DNA of 20,477 bases from a virus. Positions within the stretch are counted from its first letter, which is position 1, and each line of letters opens with the position of its first letter. The DNA lies in the IMG/VR virus record IMGVR_UViG_3300004097_000082, positions 1-20,477 of that record; one strand, given 5' to 3'. A program made the translations under genes and the position numbers. Positions 5,362 to 19,501 of the stretch are shown here, one piece after another. The notes beneath the pieces were generated by a model. The model did not search any database. It was not told the DNA's origin and saw only the letters and a program-made list of their open reading frames with translations.

Positions 5362-5565
5362 ATGCATCAAAAAATTGAGTTTGATAATTACAAACAATAT
5401 CCCGAACATTTACAAAAGGAATTGTATCTACTTGATATGGAATACTTTTGTATTGAGAAGACACAACTTGCCGGTAAGTTGCCTGAAATCCATATACCGG
5501 AATATCCTCTAGGACTTGGACTTTACATTGACTTATTAAAAGATAAAAAAAACTTGACATTTTAA
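5362..5565 (+). CDS. Small unknown protein (67 aa)
   Basis: The product starts MHQKIEFDNYKQYPEHLQKE and contains a proline-rich middle (LPEIHIPEYPLGLGL). No domain is recognised and the ribosome site is poor. The last codons overlap the -35 box of the consensus promoter that drives the following VWA gene, so this is the last gene of the small-gene string. Confidence 0.6.
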   Translation: MHQKIEFDNYKQYPEHLQKELYLLDMEYFCIEKTQLAGKLPEIHIPEYPLGLGLYIDLLKDKKNLTF

Positions 5566-5582
5566 ATTTTTTCTGATATGAT
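5554..5582 (+). promoter_or_regulatory. Consensus sigma70-type promoter for the VWA gene
   Basis: TTGACA (5554-5559), 17-bp spacer, TATGAT (5577-5582) with an extended -10 TGA. The predicted start is near 5589, a leader of about 30 nt before ATG at 5621. It shares a 14-base core, TCTGATATGATCTG, with the promoter of the HNH gene at 19894-19921. Confidence 0.88.
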
Positions 5583-5620: not shown

Positions 5621-8293
5621 ATGCAAGAAATTTATAGTGAGAGCCTAGCTAGGCTCTTCTCTGCTGAAAATATCAAAATTGAAATCAAGAATACGCCAAC
5701 AGCATACTTCGATATTGAAAAACGAAGAATGACATTTCCAAAATGGATTCTACAGTTACCTGTTGCATCCCGTGAACTGTTGATGCTTCATGAATCTTCA
5801 CATGCTCTACACACACCCGAATTTGGTACTCACGAAAAAGCTAAAGACAACCCAATGGTCTTCAAGAATATTTTAAACATCCTTGAAGATAAAAGAATCG
5901 AAGATGCCATGAAAGATAAATTTCCTGGCTCAAAATCAACATTTATCCGTGGCTTTTATGAGTTAGTAAATCGTAATTTATTTGGTATTGTGTTTGATGA
6001 AAATACAACAGACATGTGTTTGCTTGATCGTATGAATCTTCATTTCAAGGGTGACTACTATTTCGATTGTGAGTTTTCAGAAGAAGAACAGTATTGGGTG
6101 GACCGTGCTGCAAAAAATAAGACCTTTGAAGAAGTTCAACAAAATGCTATTGAATTATATGAATGGCTTAAAGACAAACATGCCGAAGAACTGATGAAAG
6201 ATGTTAGGTATGTACATGGTGAATATGATCCAGATGCTAAACCTGCTGATGAATATGAAGATTATTTTGATGACAGATCAGACATTACGGACATTCTATC
6301 AGATGAGGAAATTGAACAAGCTAAAGAAATGATTGATGATGGTCAAGAAGAAGAACTTAGAAAGTTTTTAAAGAATAAAATTGAAGAAAATCCAGGTAGC
6401 TTTGAAGATCAAGAATCATCAATGACCGACAATCATTGGGAACGAAATCAAGAACAAATGATGTCAGAAAATAAGCATACTTCAAATCCTGTCAATGCTT
6501 CATTTCCTAAGCATTTAAAAACTGAAGATTTTATTATCGACAATAAAATGTGTATTTCGGTTTTATCAAAGAATATGCAAAGTATGTCGCCTCATCAAAG
6601 AAGTCTATATGATTTGTTTATGAGTGAATATAAAAAAGAAACGGCTCCAATACAGTCACATATGGTAAGAGAATTCTATCGTATGAAAGCGGCTGAAGAT
6701 TATCGCAGAACTCAAGAGTCAAAGACAGGTAATTTAGACCTACATAAATTGGCACATTATAAGTACACTTCGGATGTATTTTTAAATAAGTCAATTATAA
6801 AAGATGAAAAAAATCATGGCTTTGTTTTGTTACTTGATTGGTCTGGCTCAATGAGCGGAATTATGACAAATGCAATTCTGCAATTGATCAATAATGTAAT
6901 GTTCTGCCGAAGTATTCAAGTGCCATTTGTTGCTTATGCATTCACAACGGATGGTGGAAACTGTTGTGATTATCCAATCAATGTAGTTACTCACGCAACA
7001 GAGCCTGGTGATTTAAGAATGCCAATTAAATATAAATTATTAAAGTTAGCCGATTCTTCAAGACAAAATTATGATGAGCAGTTAAGAACGTTGTTCTATC
7101 TTGCTTATTGTTTTCTTGGTACAACACATGCGTACAAAGAAACGGCGTTTGCACGTTATAAAAATAATATTCGTGAAAGACTTGAAAAGGTTTATAGTCC
7201 TGAAGAATATGATGCAAAGCAAAGACAATATGAGGCAGAGACAGAAAACATAGTTGAATTGAGTGATCTATTTGACCTAAGTTCAACGCCACTAAATGAT
7301 TCATTAATTATGATGAACTACCTTTTGCCTAAACATCAAAAAGAAATGAATGTTGATGTAATGAATCTAATTGTAATTACAGATGGTGACAGTGATGGTC
7401 TTCAGGGAATTGCAAATAGTTATGTAGACCGCCATGAAATCGTAACACCGGCGTTTACTGATCGTTTGCGAAAAGAAAAACTGATGGCTGAAAATAACAC
7501 TGCATCAGCAAAAGACGAATTTAGTCTTTTTGAAGACCGGTACTTTGACCGTCATGATACATGGAAAAATGATAGTGGTTCAGATACCGGACCTGTTTCA
7601 GAAACAGATGCCGGAGGATTTCATCGTCTATATGAAAAGAATGGCTGTTACAATCATACCGGCAATCCAAATGTTAATGACCGAGACCTATTTGTTCGTG
7701 GTCTACATAAGTCAACAACATACCGAGTTTATCCAAGAGGGTATGATACTTCAATTTCAAATTATAATCGTGCGAGAACAAGAGAATGGGCTCGAATCTT
7801 AAAAGCGGAAACTGGTGCAAACGTTGTTTGTATTGAACTAGTCAATCATACAAGAAATTCATTCAAGTATGATGCACCTAAAAATTATGGAGACTTTACT
7901 TTTGAAGAAGTCGAAAAAATGCTCAAAGATTTTCGAACACATGGCTTTATTGCAATTGATAAGAATACTGGTTATGATAAAATTTTTGTAGTGAACATTC
8001 AATCAATTGGCAATCCTAAGTATAATTCTTACAATTATTTCTATCTTCCTGATGATGAATCATTATTTAGATCTGAAGATGTTGACCATCTTGTAGGAGT
8101 TGAACAATCTGAAAAAACTGGCAAGTTTACTTCGAAATCATTAGCGAATGCTTTGAGTAAAAACGCATCAGTAAAGAATAAAAGAAAGTTTCTTGCTACT
8201 CGTATTGTTGAACTGGTCTCAGAGCAGCAATACGTTAAGAAAGAAAAATTCGATTTAGTAAAAAAATATGTTGACAATTTAGAAGAAGTGTGA
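5621..8293 (+). CDS. HExxH metallopeptidase-like plus VWA domain protein (CobT-like)
   Basis: An 890-aa protein. The N-terminus has a zinc-protease-type motif HESSH (H57, E58, H61) followed by NILEDKRIED (86-95), which resembles the ALEQARVE-type segment of CobT-like proteins and could supply a third acidic ligand. An acidic linker (about 205-260) follows. A VWA domain then carries a complete MIDAS: DWSGS (D406, S408, S410), T556 in SSTPLND, and D588 in VITDGDSDG. A long helical insertion sits between the first strand and T556 (about 470-545). VWA proteins of this type work with MoxR/CobS AAA+ ATPases, and such an ATPase is the next gene. Cobalt chelation is unlikely in a phage. A role in remodelling or maturing a protein complex is an inference. 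It has its own promoter and the ribosome site CGGAGAC. An 18-bp palindrome lies just after the start codon. Confidence 0.85.
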   Translation: MQEIYSESLARLFSAENIKIEIKNTPTAYFDIEKRRMTFPKWILQLPVASRELLMLHESSHALHTPEFGTHEKAKDNPMVFKNILNILEDKRIEDAMKDKFPGSKSTFIRGFYELVNRNLFGIVFDENTTDMCLLDRMNLHFKGDYYFDCEFSEEEQYWVDRAAKNKTFEEVQQNAIELYEWLKDKHAEELMKDVRYVHGEYDPDAKPADEYEDYFDDRSDITDILSDEEIEQAKEMIDDGQEEELRKFLKNKIEENPGSFEDQESSMTDNHWERNQEQMMSENKHTSNPVNASFPKHLKTEDFIIDNKMCISVLSKNMQSMSPHQRSLYDLFMSEYKKETAPIQSHMVREFYRMKAAEDYRRTQESKTGNLDLHKLAHYKYTSDVFLNKSIIKDEKNHGFVLLLDWSGSMSGIMTNAILQLINNVMFCRSIQVPFVAYAFTTDGGNCCDYPINVVTHATEPGDLRMPIKYKLLKLADSSRQNYDEQLRTLFYLAYCFLGTTHAYKETAFARYKNNIRERLEKVYSPEEYDAKQRQYEAETENIVELSDLFDLSSTPLNDSLIMMNYLLPKHQKEMNVDVMNLIVITDGDSDGLQGIANSYVDRHEIVTPAFTDRLRKEKLMAENNTASAKDEFSLFEDRYFDRHDTWKNDSGSDTGPVSETDAGGFHRLYEKNGCYNHTGNPNVNDRDLFVRGLHKSTTYRVYPRGYDTSISNYNRARTREWARILKAETGANVVCIELVNHTRNSFKYDAPKNYGDFTFEEVEKMLKDFRTHGFIAIDKNTGYDKIFVVNIQSIGNPKYNSYNYFYLPDDESLFRSEDVDHLVGVEQSEKTGKFTSKSLANALSKNASVKNKRKFLATRIVELVSEQQYVKKEKFDLVKKYVDNLEEV
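5640..5657 (+). repeat. 18-bp perfect palindrome at codons 7-13 of the VWA gene
   Basis: AGAGCCTAG followed directly by CTAGGCTCT. In RNA this can fold as a 7-bp GC-containing stem with an AGCT loop, 19 nt after the first base of the start codon. It could be a protein-binding site on DNA or a translational control hairpin. No binding protein is known. Confidence 0.6.
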
Positions 8294-8299
8294 TATAAT
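8271..8299 (+). promoter_or_regulatory. Perfect-consensus promoter for the AAA+ ATPase gene
   Basis: TTGACA (8271-8276), 17-bp spacer, TATAAT (8294-8299) with an extended -10 TGA. Both hexamers are exact consensus. The -35 and spacer lie in the last codons of the VWA gene, and its stop codon TGA (8291-8293) is the extended -10 element. The predicted start is near 8306, with a leader of about 40 nt before the ATPase ATG. Confidence 0.93.
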
Positions 8300-8344
8300 A
8301 CATCAGACCACTCTATCTTTTATTATCCAACAAAGGAGTCCTAT

Positions 8345-9823
8345 ATGATGAACCGAATTGAACAACTTCGTGAAGTGATTGACAAAACTACTGTAACTCG
8401 TAAAGAGATTGCCGAAGCCGCAGAAAAGCTTGGATTTCCATGCAATACAAAACTTTTGAAACAACTTCAAAAAGTTTCTCATGGCGTATATAATCTTGAA
8501 CTTGCATCCAAAAATGAAGATAATGTTGTGACATTTAAACCTAAGAAAACACAATCAGTGGTTGAACTAACAAAAGGTTATATACCTGAACGTGATATAT
8601 GTTTTGTGCCGTTTGGTGATTTCGGTGTAATTGATGCTGTAGTCAAATCAAAGAAGTTCATGCCTGTTGTAATTACTGGTGATTCTGGTAATGGTAAAAC
8701 AAAGATGGTAGAGCAGGCTTGTGCAAAAAACAAGCGTAATTTCTATCGTATGAATATTACGGTTGAGACCGATGAAATGGATATTCTCGGTCACTATAAT
8801 CTGATCAACGGTGAAACAATTTGGGAAGATTCACCTCTTGTAGAAGCAGCAAAAACTGGTGGTGTTGTATTGCTTGATGAAATCTTTGCAGGAAATCCAG
8901 CCAGAATGCTTGCTCTTCAAGGCATCCTCGAAGGTAAACCATTCTTAGTTAAAAAGACTGGTGAACGAATCATACCTGTTGAAGGCTTCAATATCATTGC
9001 AACTGATAATACAAAAGGTAATGGTTCAGATACTGGACGTTATATTGGCACAAACATTCAGAACACTGCATTCCTTGAGCGTTTTGTAATGTGCATTGAG
9101 CATGATTATCCGTCAAAGTCAAAAGAAACACGAATGCTTGAGAAATATATTGAAGCAAAATCAATTCCAGTTGACGATGCTTTGTTTCCTGAGAAGCTTT
9201 GTCAGTGGGCAGAAGTAACCAGAAAGTCCTATAAAGATGAGGCAATTGATGAAATGATCACAACTCGTCGACTGTTTCATATACTCGATATTTATTCTGT
9301 TTTGAAAGATAAAGAAAAAGCAATTTTATACGCAATTGCTCGTTTTGATGATGAAGTTCGTGATGCATTTATCTCACTTTATAAGAAAATTGATGATACT
9401 ATTTTCGATGATAATCATGAACCAATTGATCCAAATAACATGATGTCTACTGAAGATATTATTCAACTTGCCTGGGATGAATTTTCAGACCACTTTAATC
9501 AAGTTTCAATAAGTGAAAGTAAAACTAAGTTGTCGGATCAATTATCAAACAAGGCGTTAGAATATGCATTTCGTGCAATGCAACTTGAAGAGACAAAGAC
9601 CTATATTAAACAAACGTATGATCGAACAGATCCTAAAGATGTAGCTAATGGTAAAGAATATTTTAAAATGTTATTCAACTTTATCATTGAAGGATTCTAT
9701 GATCATACCGGAGAAGATCATCCTTATTTCAGAAAGAGTAGAACAAATTGGTCTGCCGTTGAAAATCCAGAAGGATTTTATGCAGATGTTGTTTTGAAAA
9801 TAAGAGAAGAAATTATTTATTAA
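8345..9823 (+). CDS. cobS-like: AAA+ ATPase of the CobS/MoxR type
   Basis: A 492-aa protein. A short N-terminal helical segment (about 1-50) precedes the ATPase core. Walker A is GDSGNGKT (112-119) and Walker B is VVLLDE (D178, E179). Sensor 1 lies in FNIIATDN, followed by the CobS-style stretch NGSDTGRYIGTNIQNTAFLERF, which ends in the arginine-containing LERF. The roughly 190-residue C-terminus is helical and unrecognised. Such ATPases are often annotated as cobalamin biosynthesis CobS in aquatic T4-like phages, but no other cobalamin gene is here. The partner is more likely the VWA protein encoded just upstream. It has its own perfect promoter and the ribosome site AAAGGAGTC. Translation may begin at 8345 or at the adjacent ATG 8348. 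A terminator follows. Confidence 0.9.
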   Translation: MMNRIEQLREVIDKTTVTRKEIAEAAEKLGFPCNTKLLKQLQKVSHGVYNLELASKNEDNVVTFKPKKTQSVVELTKGYIPERDICFVPFGDFGVIDAVVKSKKFMPVVITGDSGNGKTKMVEQACAKNKRNFYRMNITVETDEMDILGHYNLINGETIWEDSPLVEAAKTGGVVLLDEIFAGNPARMLALQGILEGKPFLVKKTGERIIPVEGFNIIATDNTKGNGSDTGRYIGTNIQNTAFLERFVMCIEHDYPSKSKETRMLEKYIEAKSIPVDDALFPEKLCQWAEVTRKSYKDEAIDEMITTRRLFHILDIYSVLKDKEKAILYAIARFDDEVRDAFISLYKKIDDTIFDDNHEPIDPNNMMSTEDIIQLAWDEFSDHFNQVSISESKTKLSDQLSNKALEYAFRAMQLEETKTYIKQTYDRTDPKDVANGKEYFKMLFNFIIEGFYDHTGEDHPYFRKSRTNWSAVENPEGFYADVVLKIREEIIY

Positions 9824-9837
9824 TAATTTTTAAACTC

Positions 9838-9845
9838 ACTAAATA
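9838..9845 (+). promoter_or_regulatory. Possible T4-type late promoter element
   Basis: ACTAAATA is a 6-of-8 match to the T4 late consensus TATAAATA. It overlaps the start of the terminator 5' arm. A start about 6-7 bp downstream would leave a leader of about 50 nt for the glycosyltransferase gene, which has no sigma70-type promoter. The evidence is weak. Confidence 0.25.
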
Positions 9846-9876
9846 GTAGAGAATTGAGATGATTCTCTACTATTTT
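9841..9876 (+). terminator. Terminator hairpin after the AAA+ ATPase gene
   Basis: 14-bp perfect stem: arm AAATAGTAGAGAAT (9841-9854), loop TGAGATG, arm ATTCTCTACTATTT (9862-9875), then TTAATTATTAATTTTT. The 3' arm supplies part of the T-rich tail. It lies 17 bp after the ATPase stop and ends the VWA/ATPase module. Confidence 0.8.
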
Positions 9877-10863: not shown

Positions 10864-10892
10864 TTGACATTGATTTAATATTATGTTATAAT
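10864..10892 (+). promoter_or_regulatory. Perfect-consensus promoter for the sliding clamp gene
   Basis: TTGACA (10864-10869), 17-bp spacer, TATAAT (10887-10892) with an extended -10 TGT. The predicted start at about 10898-10900 lies inside the 5' arm of the adjacent terminator. The leader to the clamp ATG (10951) would be about 52 nt. Confidence 0.93.
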
Positions 10893-11635: not shown

Positions 11636-11941
11636 ATGAAAGTATATTCTATGAAAATGATCACTGGTGAAGAGGTACTCGCTAGAGTAGGTCTTGATGA
11701 TGTAGAGTTTTGGCAATCACAAAGCAAACTAAGTTTGTCTAATCCATCTGTTTTTGTTCAATCACCTCAAGGTGTTGCCTTAATGCCCTGGATAAATACT
11801 GGTGATAAAGATTCAGTAATCACTGTTGAAACAAGTAAAATTGTGGCAATGGTAAAACCAAACAAGGAAGTTGAAAGTGCTTATTTAGGAGCAGTTACAG
11901 GTATCGATGTTAGCGCAGAGCAATCACAAATTATACTCTAA
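11636..11941 (+). CDS. Small Sm-like fold candidate, conserved in T4-type phages
   Basis: A 101-aa protein starting MKVYSMKMITGEEVLARVG. The ITGEEVLARV strand-turn-strand and later VTVETSKIVAMV recall Sm/LSm-like beta-barrel proteins, and similar small proteins are familiar beside replication genes in aquatic T4-like phages. A frame 24 bp longer exists (ATG at 11612), but that would overlap the clamp gene. ATG 11636 sits just after the clamp stop and starts at the conserved segment. The last 35 bp overlap the transglycosylase gene in another frame. An RNA- or protein-binding role is inference. Confidence 0.7.
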   Translation: MKVYSMKMITGEEVLARVGLDDVEFWQSQSKLSLSNPSVFVQSPQGVALMPWINTGDKDSVITVETSKIVAMVKPNKEVESAYLGAVTGIDVSAEQSQIIL

Positions 11942-12503
11942 GATTTTAATTGGTATTTCAGCACTTTTATTAATGGGTGCTGAACGTGATCCTTTTAACA
12001 TGTATTCAAATAGTTCATATTTTAAATATCATGTAAAGAAGTGTGTAAGTAAAGCAAAGACTGATGGTTATCTTGAATACATTATACCAGAACTTTATAA
12101 AAATAAATTGCCTTATGAACTGGCATATTTGCCGATCATTGAAAGTTGTTTTGAACCTACTGCGGTTTCAATAAAAGGAGCCAAAGGTCTTTGGCAAATA
12201 AATGATTTGACTGCAAAGCATTTAGGTATGGAAACTCGTATCTTAATTGATGAAAGATATGATTGGCGAAAGTCAACACATGCCGCAATAAATTATTTAA
12301 AGTTTTTGAAAGCAAGATTTCCATCCTGGATACAAGTTCTTGCCGCCTACAATGTAGGTCCAACTTATATCCGTGATCAAATGAGAGAAAAAAATTCTGA
12401 TAAACTTGGTGATTTAAAACTACCAAGAGAAACAGTAAAGTATATTAATCAGTTTGTTGCAATGATTGATATCTTGCGGAATATTAATCGTAATAAAATA
12501 TAA
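11907..12503 (+). CDS. Lytic transglycosylase (SLT domain, MltD-like)
   Basis: A 198-aa protein that cleaves the MurNAc-GlcNAc bond of peptidoglycan. An N-terminal basic and hydrophobic segment (about 8-24, KLYSKILIGISALLLMGA) looks like a signal peptide or releasable signal anchor. The SLT domain has YLPIIES with catalytic E79, then KGAKGLWQ (90-97), DERYDWRKST (115-124), AINYLKFL and LAAYNVG (145-151). The order matches MltD. The start overlaps the previous gene by 35 bp. AGGAG lies about 15 bp upstream, longer than ideal, and the later ATG would remove the hydrophobic segment. It is unusual inside a replication block and may aid genome entry or lysis. Confidence 0.9.
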   Translation: MLAQSNHKLYSKILIGISALLLMGAERDPFNMYSNSSYFKYHVKKCVSKAKTDGYLEYIIPELYKNKLPYELAYLPIIESCFEPTAVSIKGAKGLWQINDLTAKHLGMETRILIDERYDWRKSTHAAINYLKFLKARFPSWIQVLAAYNVGPTYIRDQMREKNSDKLGDLKLPRETVKYINQFVAMIDILRNINRNKI

Positions 12504-12513
12504 TGGAGTGAAA

Positions 12514-12792
12514 ATGTCAGAAGAAATTGAAGCAAGTGTGCTACCTTCATTGGAAGAAGACCGTGAGCAAATTCAAAAAGTGATTCGAGAAATTTCAAAT
12601 TGTAAAACAAGAATCGAAGGCGAAAATGAATACATCAAGGATGCCTTGTCTGATTTGTCGAAGCAATTTAAAATTCCGAAAGCAAGTTTGGTTAAACTTG
12701 CTAACATCTACCACAAAAGAAATAGTGCTGAAGAAAGAGCAAAGTCAGAAGAAGTTTTCAATATGTATGATGTAATCTTCAAAACTTCTTGA
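12514..12792 (+). CDS. dsbA: DsbA-like double-stranded DNA-binding protein (late promoter accessory)
   Basis: A 92-aa protein (T4 DsbA is 89 aa). The C-terminal two thirds match T4 DsbA in order: NEYIKD (about 43-48), a segment like LVKLANIYHKRN (63-74), and EEVFNMYDVIF ending at the C-terminus, as in T4 (ELYDTVFSK). In T4, DsbA binds DNA near late promoters and assists late transcription. The ATG at 12514 is chosen over an upstream in-frame ATG (12466), which lies inside the transglycosylase gene; TGGAGTG stands before 12514. It lies between the clamp and clamp loader genes, unlike T4, where dsbA neighbours gene 33. Confidence 0.82.
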   Translation: MSEEIEASVLPSLEEDREQIQKVIREISNCKTRIEGENEYIKDALSDLSKQFKIPKASLVKLANIYHKRNSAEERAKSEEVFNMYDVIFKTS

Positions 12793-18517: not shown

Positions 18518-19501
18518 ATGAGTAAAAACAGACAAGGTTCTGCATTCAATCCAGAAACTCAAGTTCGTAAAATAGAATTTAAAGTTGAAACTATAACAAA
18601 AGATCGTGCAATTGCTTTTGTTTCAAAATATCATTATTCACCTGTGATGCCTGTACAAACAAAATATTTTCTCGGTTTCTTTGATGAAGGTAAGTTAAAA
18701 GGTGTTTTGACATTAGGTTATGGTGTGCAGCCAAGACATACAATTAATAAAATATTACCAACATGTAGTGATGAAATCATGGAACATCACATTGAGTATA
18801 AAGGAAAAAAGTCTAAGAAAATATATCATAATCCACTAGATGAATGGTATTTTGAAATTGGTAAAATGTGTATGTCTGATGATATGCTAAAGAATTCCGA
18901 AACACAAATGCTTTCTGCAACTGTAAAATGGTTGAAACGCCACTCGAAAAAAACTAAGTTTTTGTATACTATGGCTGATGGCATCATGGGTAAGCATGGT
19001 GGTGTATATCAAAGTTTTAGTATGTACTATGGTGGTATGAAATCAACTGAAATCTATCGTAGCAAAACAGGCGAGAGAATTCATCCTAGAAGTTCAGCCG
19101 CAATGTGTAAAGAAGATGCTAGAATAGAAGGTATTGATAAGAGAACAAGATTATCGATATCATATATGGAAAGTAAAGGTATACAACATGTACATGGATA
19201 TATGGTTTGTTATATGATACCTCTCAATCCAGAAGGTAAAAGACTTATAGCTGAAGCAATGCCTTTTGAGAGAACTTCAAGTACATGTAAATGGCAAAAG
19301 GGAAACTATCCTAAATTTGAAGATTTACGATGGTTTATAAGAGTTCGCAAAGAAGGTGATAATGATTATAATCCAAAAACAGAAAAAGTTGAGATTAATC
19401 AACCTGAATTTAATTATGACAATATTGAGTATAATCCTCAATTAAAAAAACGATTGTATAAATCTAACATACCAAATTTAGAAGATATTCTTTCAGAATA
19501 A
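18518..19501 (+). CDS. Mom-like GNAT-fold protein, candidate DNA adenine modifier
   Basis: A 327-aa protein. Segments recall the Mom family (phage Mu Mom adds a methylcarbamoyl group to adenine and protects DNA from restriction). These are FVSKYHYSPVMP (34-45), the GNAT-like strand KGVLTLGYGVQPRHTINK (61-78), YFEIGKMCMSDDMLKNSETQ (111-130) with E113, FLYTMADGIMGKHGGVYQ (148-165) with D154, and YYGGMKSTEIY (170-180). The C-terminal third (about 230-327) is unrecognised and ends acidic. It has a weak ribosome site and no visible sigma70 promoter. Alternatively it could be an acyltransferase with another substrate. The family is inferred by eye. Confidence 0.6.
   Translation: MSKNRQGSAFNPETQVRKIEFKVETITKDRAIAFVSKYHYSPVMPVQTKYFLGFFDEGKLKGVLTLGYGVQPRHTINKILPTCSDEIMEHHIEYKGKKSKKIYHNPLDEWYFEIGKMCMSDDMLKNSETQMLSATVKWLKRHSKKTKFLYTMADGIMGKHGGVYQSFSMYYGGMKSTEIYRSKTGERIHPRSSAAMCKEDARIEGIDKRTRLSISYMESKGIQHVHGYMVCYMIPLNPEGKRLIAEAMPFERTSSTCKWQKGNYPKFEDLRWFIRVRKEGDNDYNPKTEKVEINQPEFNYDNIEYNPQLKKRLYKSNIPNLEDILSE

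Follow-up and report, generated by a model that had tools for sequence, protein, structure and literature searches.

The window analysed here is a stretch of viral DNA of 20,477 nucleotides, comprising positions 1 to 20,477 of the IMG/VR record IMGVR_UViG_3300004097_000082. It contains two intact, adjacent open reading frames, here called T (5621–8293, 890 aa) and S (8345–9823, 492 aa), which encode a protein with a von Willebrand factor A (VWA) domain and a CobS/MoxR-type AAA+ ATPase, respectively. Both genes and their features lie on the plus strand, and coordinates are those of the window. The source is a marine T4-like phage, as gp46, peptide deformylase, gp45, gp44, gp62 and RegA were recognised flanking T–S. 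The first 16,290 bases are matched at 99.9% by two further contigs, the longer of 58 kb, which encode the same proteins. Profile matches over most of each protein assign T to phrog_459 ("peptidase", E 3.6e-119) and S to phrog_249 ("porphyrin biosynthesis", E 1.5e-94), and T is present in 463 phage records, nearly all of them cyanophages. From our comparisons of these sequences we argue against a cobalamin label for the pair, and consider that a protease combined with a complex remodeller is the best available reading.

Domain architecture of T and S

The sequence-only reading of this locus had assigned to the 890-aa T a HESSH motif, an acidic linker and a VWA domain whose metal ion-dependent adhesion site (MIDAS) is complete, and all of these were located, followed by a C-terminal extension. 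The N-terminal domain (about residues 1–145, 5621–6055) is predicted to be gluzincin-like from its modelled topology, its alignment and a profile link to PF06213 proteins, with H57, H61 and E89 as the putative metal ligands. HESSH (residues 57–61, 5789–5803) is the proposed metal-binding and catalytic motif, and E89, the proposed third ligand, lies in the sequence NILEDKRIE (residues 86–94, 5876–5902) on the next helix (residues 79–100). As an HExxH motif also occurs in 6.7% of shuffled 890-aa sequences, its presence alone is weak proof, and it is conservation that carries the case. H57, E58, H61, N86, E89, D90 and R92 are invariant among 77 T4-like proteins with a mean column identity of 32%. 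Because these 77 proteins were gathered with a pattern that itself contained HExxH, and are thus biased for counting that motif, sets gathered on a VWA pattern and on S were used for the conservation count instead. The intact HExxH that had been noted in T is, together with the downstream N-x-x-E-D-x-R at the right spacing, kept in all 70 complete N-termini of the T4-like set gathered on the VWA pattern; the single apparent exception begins inside the domain, where its contig ends.

An AlphaFold2 model of T built with the 77 sequences (mean pLDDT, the predicted local distance difference test score, of 76) places strands at residues 19–23, 29–31 and 36–40, then the HExxH helix and then the E89 helix, with pLDDT values of about 75–92 in this domain. 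The predicted fold thus has the gluzincin topology, in which the HExxH helix follows a small sheet and a glutamate lies on the next helix; the minimal zincin scaffold has a sheet of three strands (PMC3890501). A predicted structure without a zinc site around H57/H61 had been named beforehand as evidence against the proposed proteolytic or maturation machine; at the level of topology, the fold fits such a site. Pfam and NCBIfam searches did not recognise the N-terminal domain of T, and profile searches of the PDB with T and with this domain gave no significant match; a match to AcrIIA26 (E 0.054) in the PDB search was taken as chance.

The acidic linker (residues 205–275, 6233–6445) consists of 37% Asp/Glu. 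The VWA domain (about residues 395–600, 6803–7420, with an insertion around residues 500–545) has all elements of the MIDAS (DxSxS, T and D), namely DWSGS at residues 406–410 (6836–6850), in which D406, S408 and S410 are invariant, T556 (7286–7288), which is at least 90% conserved, and the invariant D588 (7382–7384). Alignment supports this assignment, and in a structure search the domain was most like the VWA domain of NorD and the MIDAS domain of midasin, both of which act together with an AAA+ ring.

The next gene had been read as a CobS-type AAA+ ATPase, which agrees with our analysis: S matches AAA_5 at 76 bits (cut-off 22), and its Walker A motif GDSGNGKT (residues 112–119, 8678–8701; G112, G115, G117 and K118) and Walker B residues D178–E179 (8876–8881) are invariant. 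S resembles CobS, NorQ and midasin, the midasin scores being sums over several AAA domains, and it reaches 46 of 558 bits against the CobS equivalog TIGR01650, far under the curated cut-off. In a tree of S, the T4-like phages form one well-supported group and cellular CobS another. T lies upstream of S on the same strand in 41 of 42 loci anchored on S.

Relation to CobT and the cobalamin question

The CobT model TIGR01651 matched neither T of the window, nor eight phage T proteins, nor the 58-kb sister contig, while a Sinorhizobium CobT control scored 1167 bits. Cellular CobT proteins were fetched with a VWA stretch as the query and were then checked against TIGR01651 and Pfam. PF06213, a cellular CobT family, recognises HExxH-intact proteins of an E. 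coli phage-plasmid (E 6.8e-27) and of Roseobacter phage CRP-810 (E 2e-15). It also recognises such proteins in a Salmonella island (E 5e-6) and in bacterial contigs (E 6e-13 and 2e-6). The N-terminal domain of T4-like T proteins aligned with a set of such PF06213 proteins, in which HExxH is present in five of six rows (hhalign 98.2%, E 4e-14), and the set aligned in turn with cellular CobT (95.6%, E 1e-8). The highest values obtained from 40 column shuffles were 1.9% and 44%, respectively. As judged from these profile comparisons, the N-terminal domain of T is homologous to that of cellular CobT, through intermediates only. In the alignment, HExxH corresponds to DSMAL in cellular CobT, whereas the following E-x-x-R-[VI]-E is retained. 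None of 124 cellular CobT rows of the chelatase lineage, some of them near-identical, has HExxH at the aligned position; an unrelated HEIPH occurs elsewhere in one cellular CobT (row L209).

It has been proposed in print that such genes encode a viral CobS and CobT, which would combine with the CobN of the host and raise cobalamin production (PMC8651126). S is indeed homologous to CobS, and T to CobT through the intermediates, and host CobN could still serve; cyanobacteria have CobN (a Synechococcus elongatus control matches). However, CobN was found in none of 18 phage, plasmid and island records, although the controls matched, and the HExxH motif that is strict in T4-like T is absent from all cellular chelatase-lineage CobT proteins examined. 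Nor did any of 13 records contain a B12-dependent ribonucleotide reductase above cut-off; 12 of them have a weaker ribonucleotide reductase match in a frame of 700–800 aa, which we take to be class I NrdA. HExxH pairs also occur in E. coli elements, while the E. coli control genome has no CobN match. The doubt about a cobalamin role expressed in the sequence-only reading is thus borne out as far as CobN and the reductase are concerned, and we regard an auxiliary cobaltochelatase as improbable.

Among CobT-positive genomes, a sample of Pseudomonadota plus named controls counted by hand, 64 of 84 had a CobN match and 20 did not, and the Caulobacter control matches CobT and not CobN. CobST without CobN may thus serve some purpose other than B12 synthesis. 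Our literature searches, which were limited, found nothing on the essentiality of cobT in Caulobacter or on the timing of phage cobS expression.

Gene neighbourhood and proposed function

In T4-like phages, the neighbours of T–S are gp46, gp45 and gp44, within a co-oriented conserved block of the order gp47-gp46-(peptide deformylase)-T-S-(glycosyltransferase)-gp45-gp44-gp62-regA. This arrangement of neighbours is common to S-PM2, P-SSM4, Ochrobactrum phage OC and the two closest uncultured relatives, and in phage OC the match extends to the deformylase and the glycosyltransferase. Replication genes also lie near related pairs elsewhere. DNA polymerase III alpha is encoded no more than a few genes downstream of the pair in SSU5, RHEph10, nickie, BUCTxx99 and E. 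coli and Acinetobacter phage-plasmids. Vibrio phage ICP2 and three bacterial contigs have a primase gene nearby, Bacteroides phage BS162P1 has a gene for a DNA polymerase, and a Salmonella island has ssb and bet. Since several of these elements are interrelated, this amounts to about five of eight independent cases.

Consensus matching alone places a promoter-like site before T (TTGACA-17-TATGAT, 11/12, 5554–5582) and another before S (TTGACA-17-TATAAT, 12/12, with TG ahead of the second hexamer, 8271–8299), and a strong terminator-like hairpin with a 16-bp stem lies behind S (9841–9875). A promoter-like site matching at least 11/12 positions was found in the T–S gap of 7 of 80 relatives and in none of 800 shuffles, so that a strong site is not general among relatives. 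The earlier description of the pair as an isolated unit with its own promoters and terminator holds for the presence of these signals, but not for the isolation, because T and S are embedded in the conserved block that other T4-like phages also have.

Further features were noted in the window and in the sister contig. An Amidoligase_2-like protein (2066–2923; PF12224, E 5.9e-5), which the two closest relatives have as well, adjoins gp46 and peptide deformylase. A perfect sigma70-type promoter-like site (TTGACA-17-TATAAT) occurs at 10864, right before the gp45 gene, and between gp45 and gp44 a lytic transglycosylase-like gene overlaps a phrog_639 transcription regulator gene (11907–12792). A Mom-like DNA modification protein is encoded at 18518–19501 (PF25680, E 2.6e-42), and an ADP-ribosylglycohydrolase-like gene (phrog_6572, E 5.7e-67) lies farther along the 58-kb sister contig (L387:10689–11573).

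The sequence-only reading had suggested virion assembly as a possible role, and S and T would then remodel and cut structural proteins during the assembly or maturation of head or tail, as has been proposed for a jumbo-phage pair of the same architecture in a study that also cites an archaeal virus whose tail depends on a MoxR-vWA system (PMC7824862). We favour this less than a role at replication complexes, because T–S sit among genes for replication, recombination and late transcription, not structural genes, in T4-like phages, and because in several unrelated elements the pair lies beside a gene for a polymerase or a primase. The two cyanophage-core proteins found in virions belong to clusters 15 and 190, and not to those of T (146) or S (150) (PMC3037559), although an assembly protease need not remain in the virion. 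The promoter-like sites of T and S also look sigma70-like and not of the T4 late type. Overall, virion assembly appears unlikely to us.

In our preferred model, to which we give an even chance, T and S constitute an ATP-driven AAA+/VWA complex remodeller with a gluzincin-like domain, probably directed at replication, recombination or late transcription. In this analysis, its basis is the architecture, the conservation, the homology through intermediates, the gene context and the absence of CobN. S would form an AAA+ ring, on which the VWA domain of T would dock and couple ATP hydrolysis to the target. The N-terminal domain of T would bind metal and probably cut or clip the target presented by the ring. 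This target would most likely be a phage or host protein complex engaged in replicating or recombining DNA or in late transcription, and neither a corrin nor the virion. Cellular cobaltochelatase CobST would be a relative in which the metal site was lost.

Some observations speak against this model. The direct comparison of T with the cellular CobT profile is not significant (5%), for which reason intermediates were used, and the sole zincin match in a whole-chain Foldseek search of T is a weak one, to ArdC (E 0.5). Gene neighbourhood is weak evidence of a target, as guilt by association, and serves to set a hypothesis; moreover, CRP-810, GMA3 and TIN4 have no annotated replication neighbour within 5 kb. 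Furthermore, HExxH is replaced by SEISK in Pseudomonas phage nickie, REVST in Stenotrophomonas phage BUCTxx99 and QEVAK in an Acinetobacter phage-plasmid, yet in these proteins the domain layout is otherwise unchanged, and both the AAA+ partner and the nearby DNA polymerase III alpha gene are still there. As several homologues, including these three and all cellular chelatase-lineage CobT examined, keep the pair without the motif, HExxH is not required by every family member.

The relatives that keep the pair after HExxH loss speak for a T that binds metal without cutting, as a metal-loading or structural cochaperone like NorD or CobT, in a machine that only remodels or inserts metal. So do NorQ–NorD and CobS–CobT, which among characterised AAA+/VWA pairs are the closest and both function in the insertion of metal cofactors, and the minimal Glu-zincin, for which no peptidase activity was detected (PMC3890501). 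However, the glutamate of the zincin HExxH motif is needed for catalysis and not for metal binding, and it is invariant in both T4-like sets (77 and 70 sequences). On balance, a purely non-cutting T seems to us to have a small probability, and we retain the model of a cutting remodeller.

As far as can be judged from an unrooted tree, loss of HExxH from a metal-binding ancestor is simpler than its repeated gain. It is conceivable, though we think it rather doubtful, that CobS–CobT began as a mobile-element AAA+/VWA/gluzincin machine handling DNA-replication complexes, that cellular CobT is a branch with a decayed protease site, and that cobS, a core gene of cyanophages, is part of a protein-remodelling protease and not of B12 metabolism. 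Surveys of ocean viruses routinely tally cobS among the auxiliary B12 genes, a label that misleads if T is a gluzincin-like cochaperone. In that case T–S would be a widespread phage machine that can be tested by point mutants of H57, E58 and D406, and the origin of the N-terminal domain of cellular CobT would be explained as well.

Comparison with known systems

The T–S gene pair itself is already known from many phages, and our analysis does not support it as a novelty: the two genes belong to the cyanophage core (PMC3037559, PMC8651126), and for other phages an assembly machine made of a metallopeptidase-vWA protein and MoxR had been put forward (PMC7824862). cobS was listed as a cyanophage core gene (PMC3037559), pelagimyophages carry cobS and cobT (PMC7029224), and such pairs have been named viral cobST, with the peptidase annotation called a mistake (PMC8651126). 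What is new here is the test between the cobaltochelatase and the MoxR/metallopeptidase-vWA readings of the pair.

The T4-like cyanophage "peptidase" and "cobS" (T4-GC 146 and 150; for example S-PM2p119/p120) are the same genes, with the same order, domains, invariant residues and position between gp46 and gp45. T of the window is longer (890 versus mostly 700–770 aa), about 25–29% identical and has insertions in and after the VWA domain, and S has a longer C-terminus. In Ochrobactrum phage vB_OspM_OC, a CobT/cobalt chelatase subunit occurs in the same order (gp46-peptide deformylase-T-S-glycosyltransferase-gp45-gp44), with T 22% and S 32% identical.

Cellular CobS–CobT (TIGR01650/TIGR01651; PF06213 and PF11775) has in common with T–S the N-terminal domain (through intermediates), the acidic linker, the VWA domain with MIDAS and the AAA+ partner, but differs in the DSMAL-type sequence in place of HExxH and in its partner CobN, which is missing from the phage records. 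Our literature search, which was limited, found no work joining CobT with a zincin or HExxH, and such work may exist. NorQ–NorD and midasin resemble T–S in that a VWA/MIDAS partner or domain accompanies an AAA+ ring; to our knowledge, neither has a zincin domain.

The cobST-like pairs of SSU5, RHEph10, CRP-810, ICP2, BS162P1 and the Salmonella island share with T–S an HExxH-VWA protein, an AAA+ gene that is mostly adjacent and, in most, replication neighbours, but lie outside the T4-type cluster, and several are matched by PF06213 and/or PF11775. Other jumbo phages (group 2.2) have a gene for a MoxR ATPase next to one for a vWA protein whose N-terminal domain is a metallopeptidase (ASV44728/ASV44729), a pair for which virion assembly with peptide processing was proposed (PMC7824862); in domain architecture, this pair is like T–S, with the AAA+ gene beside that of the VWA protein.

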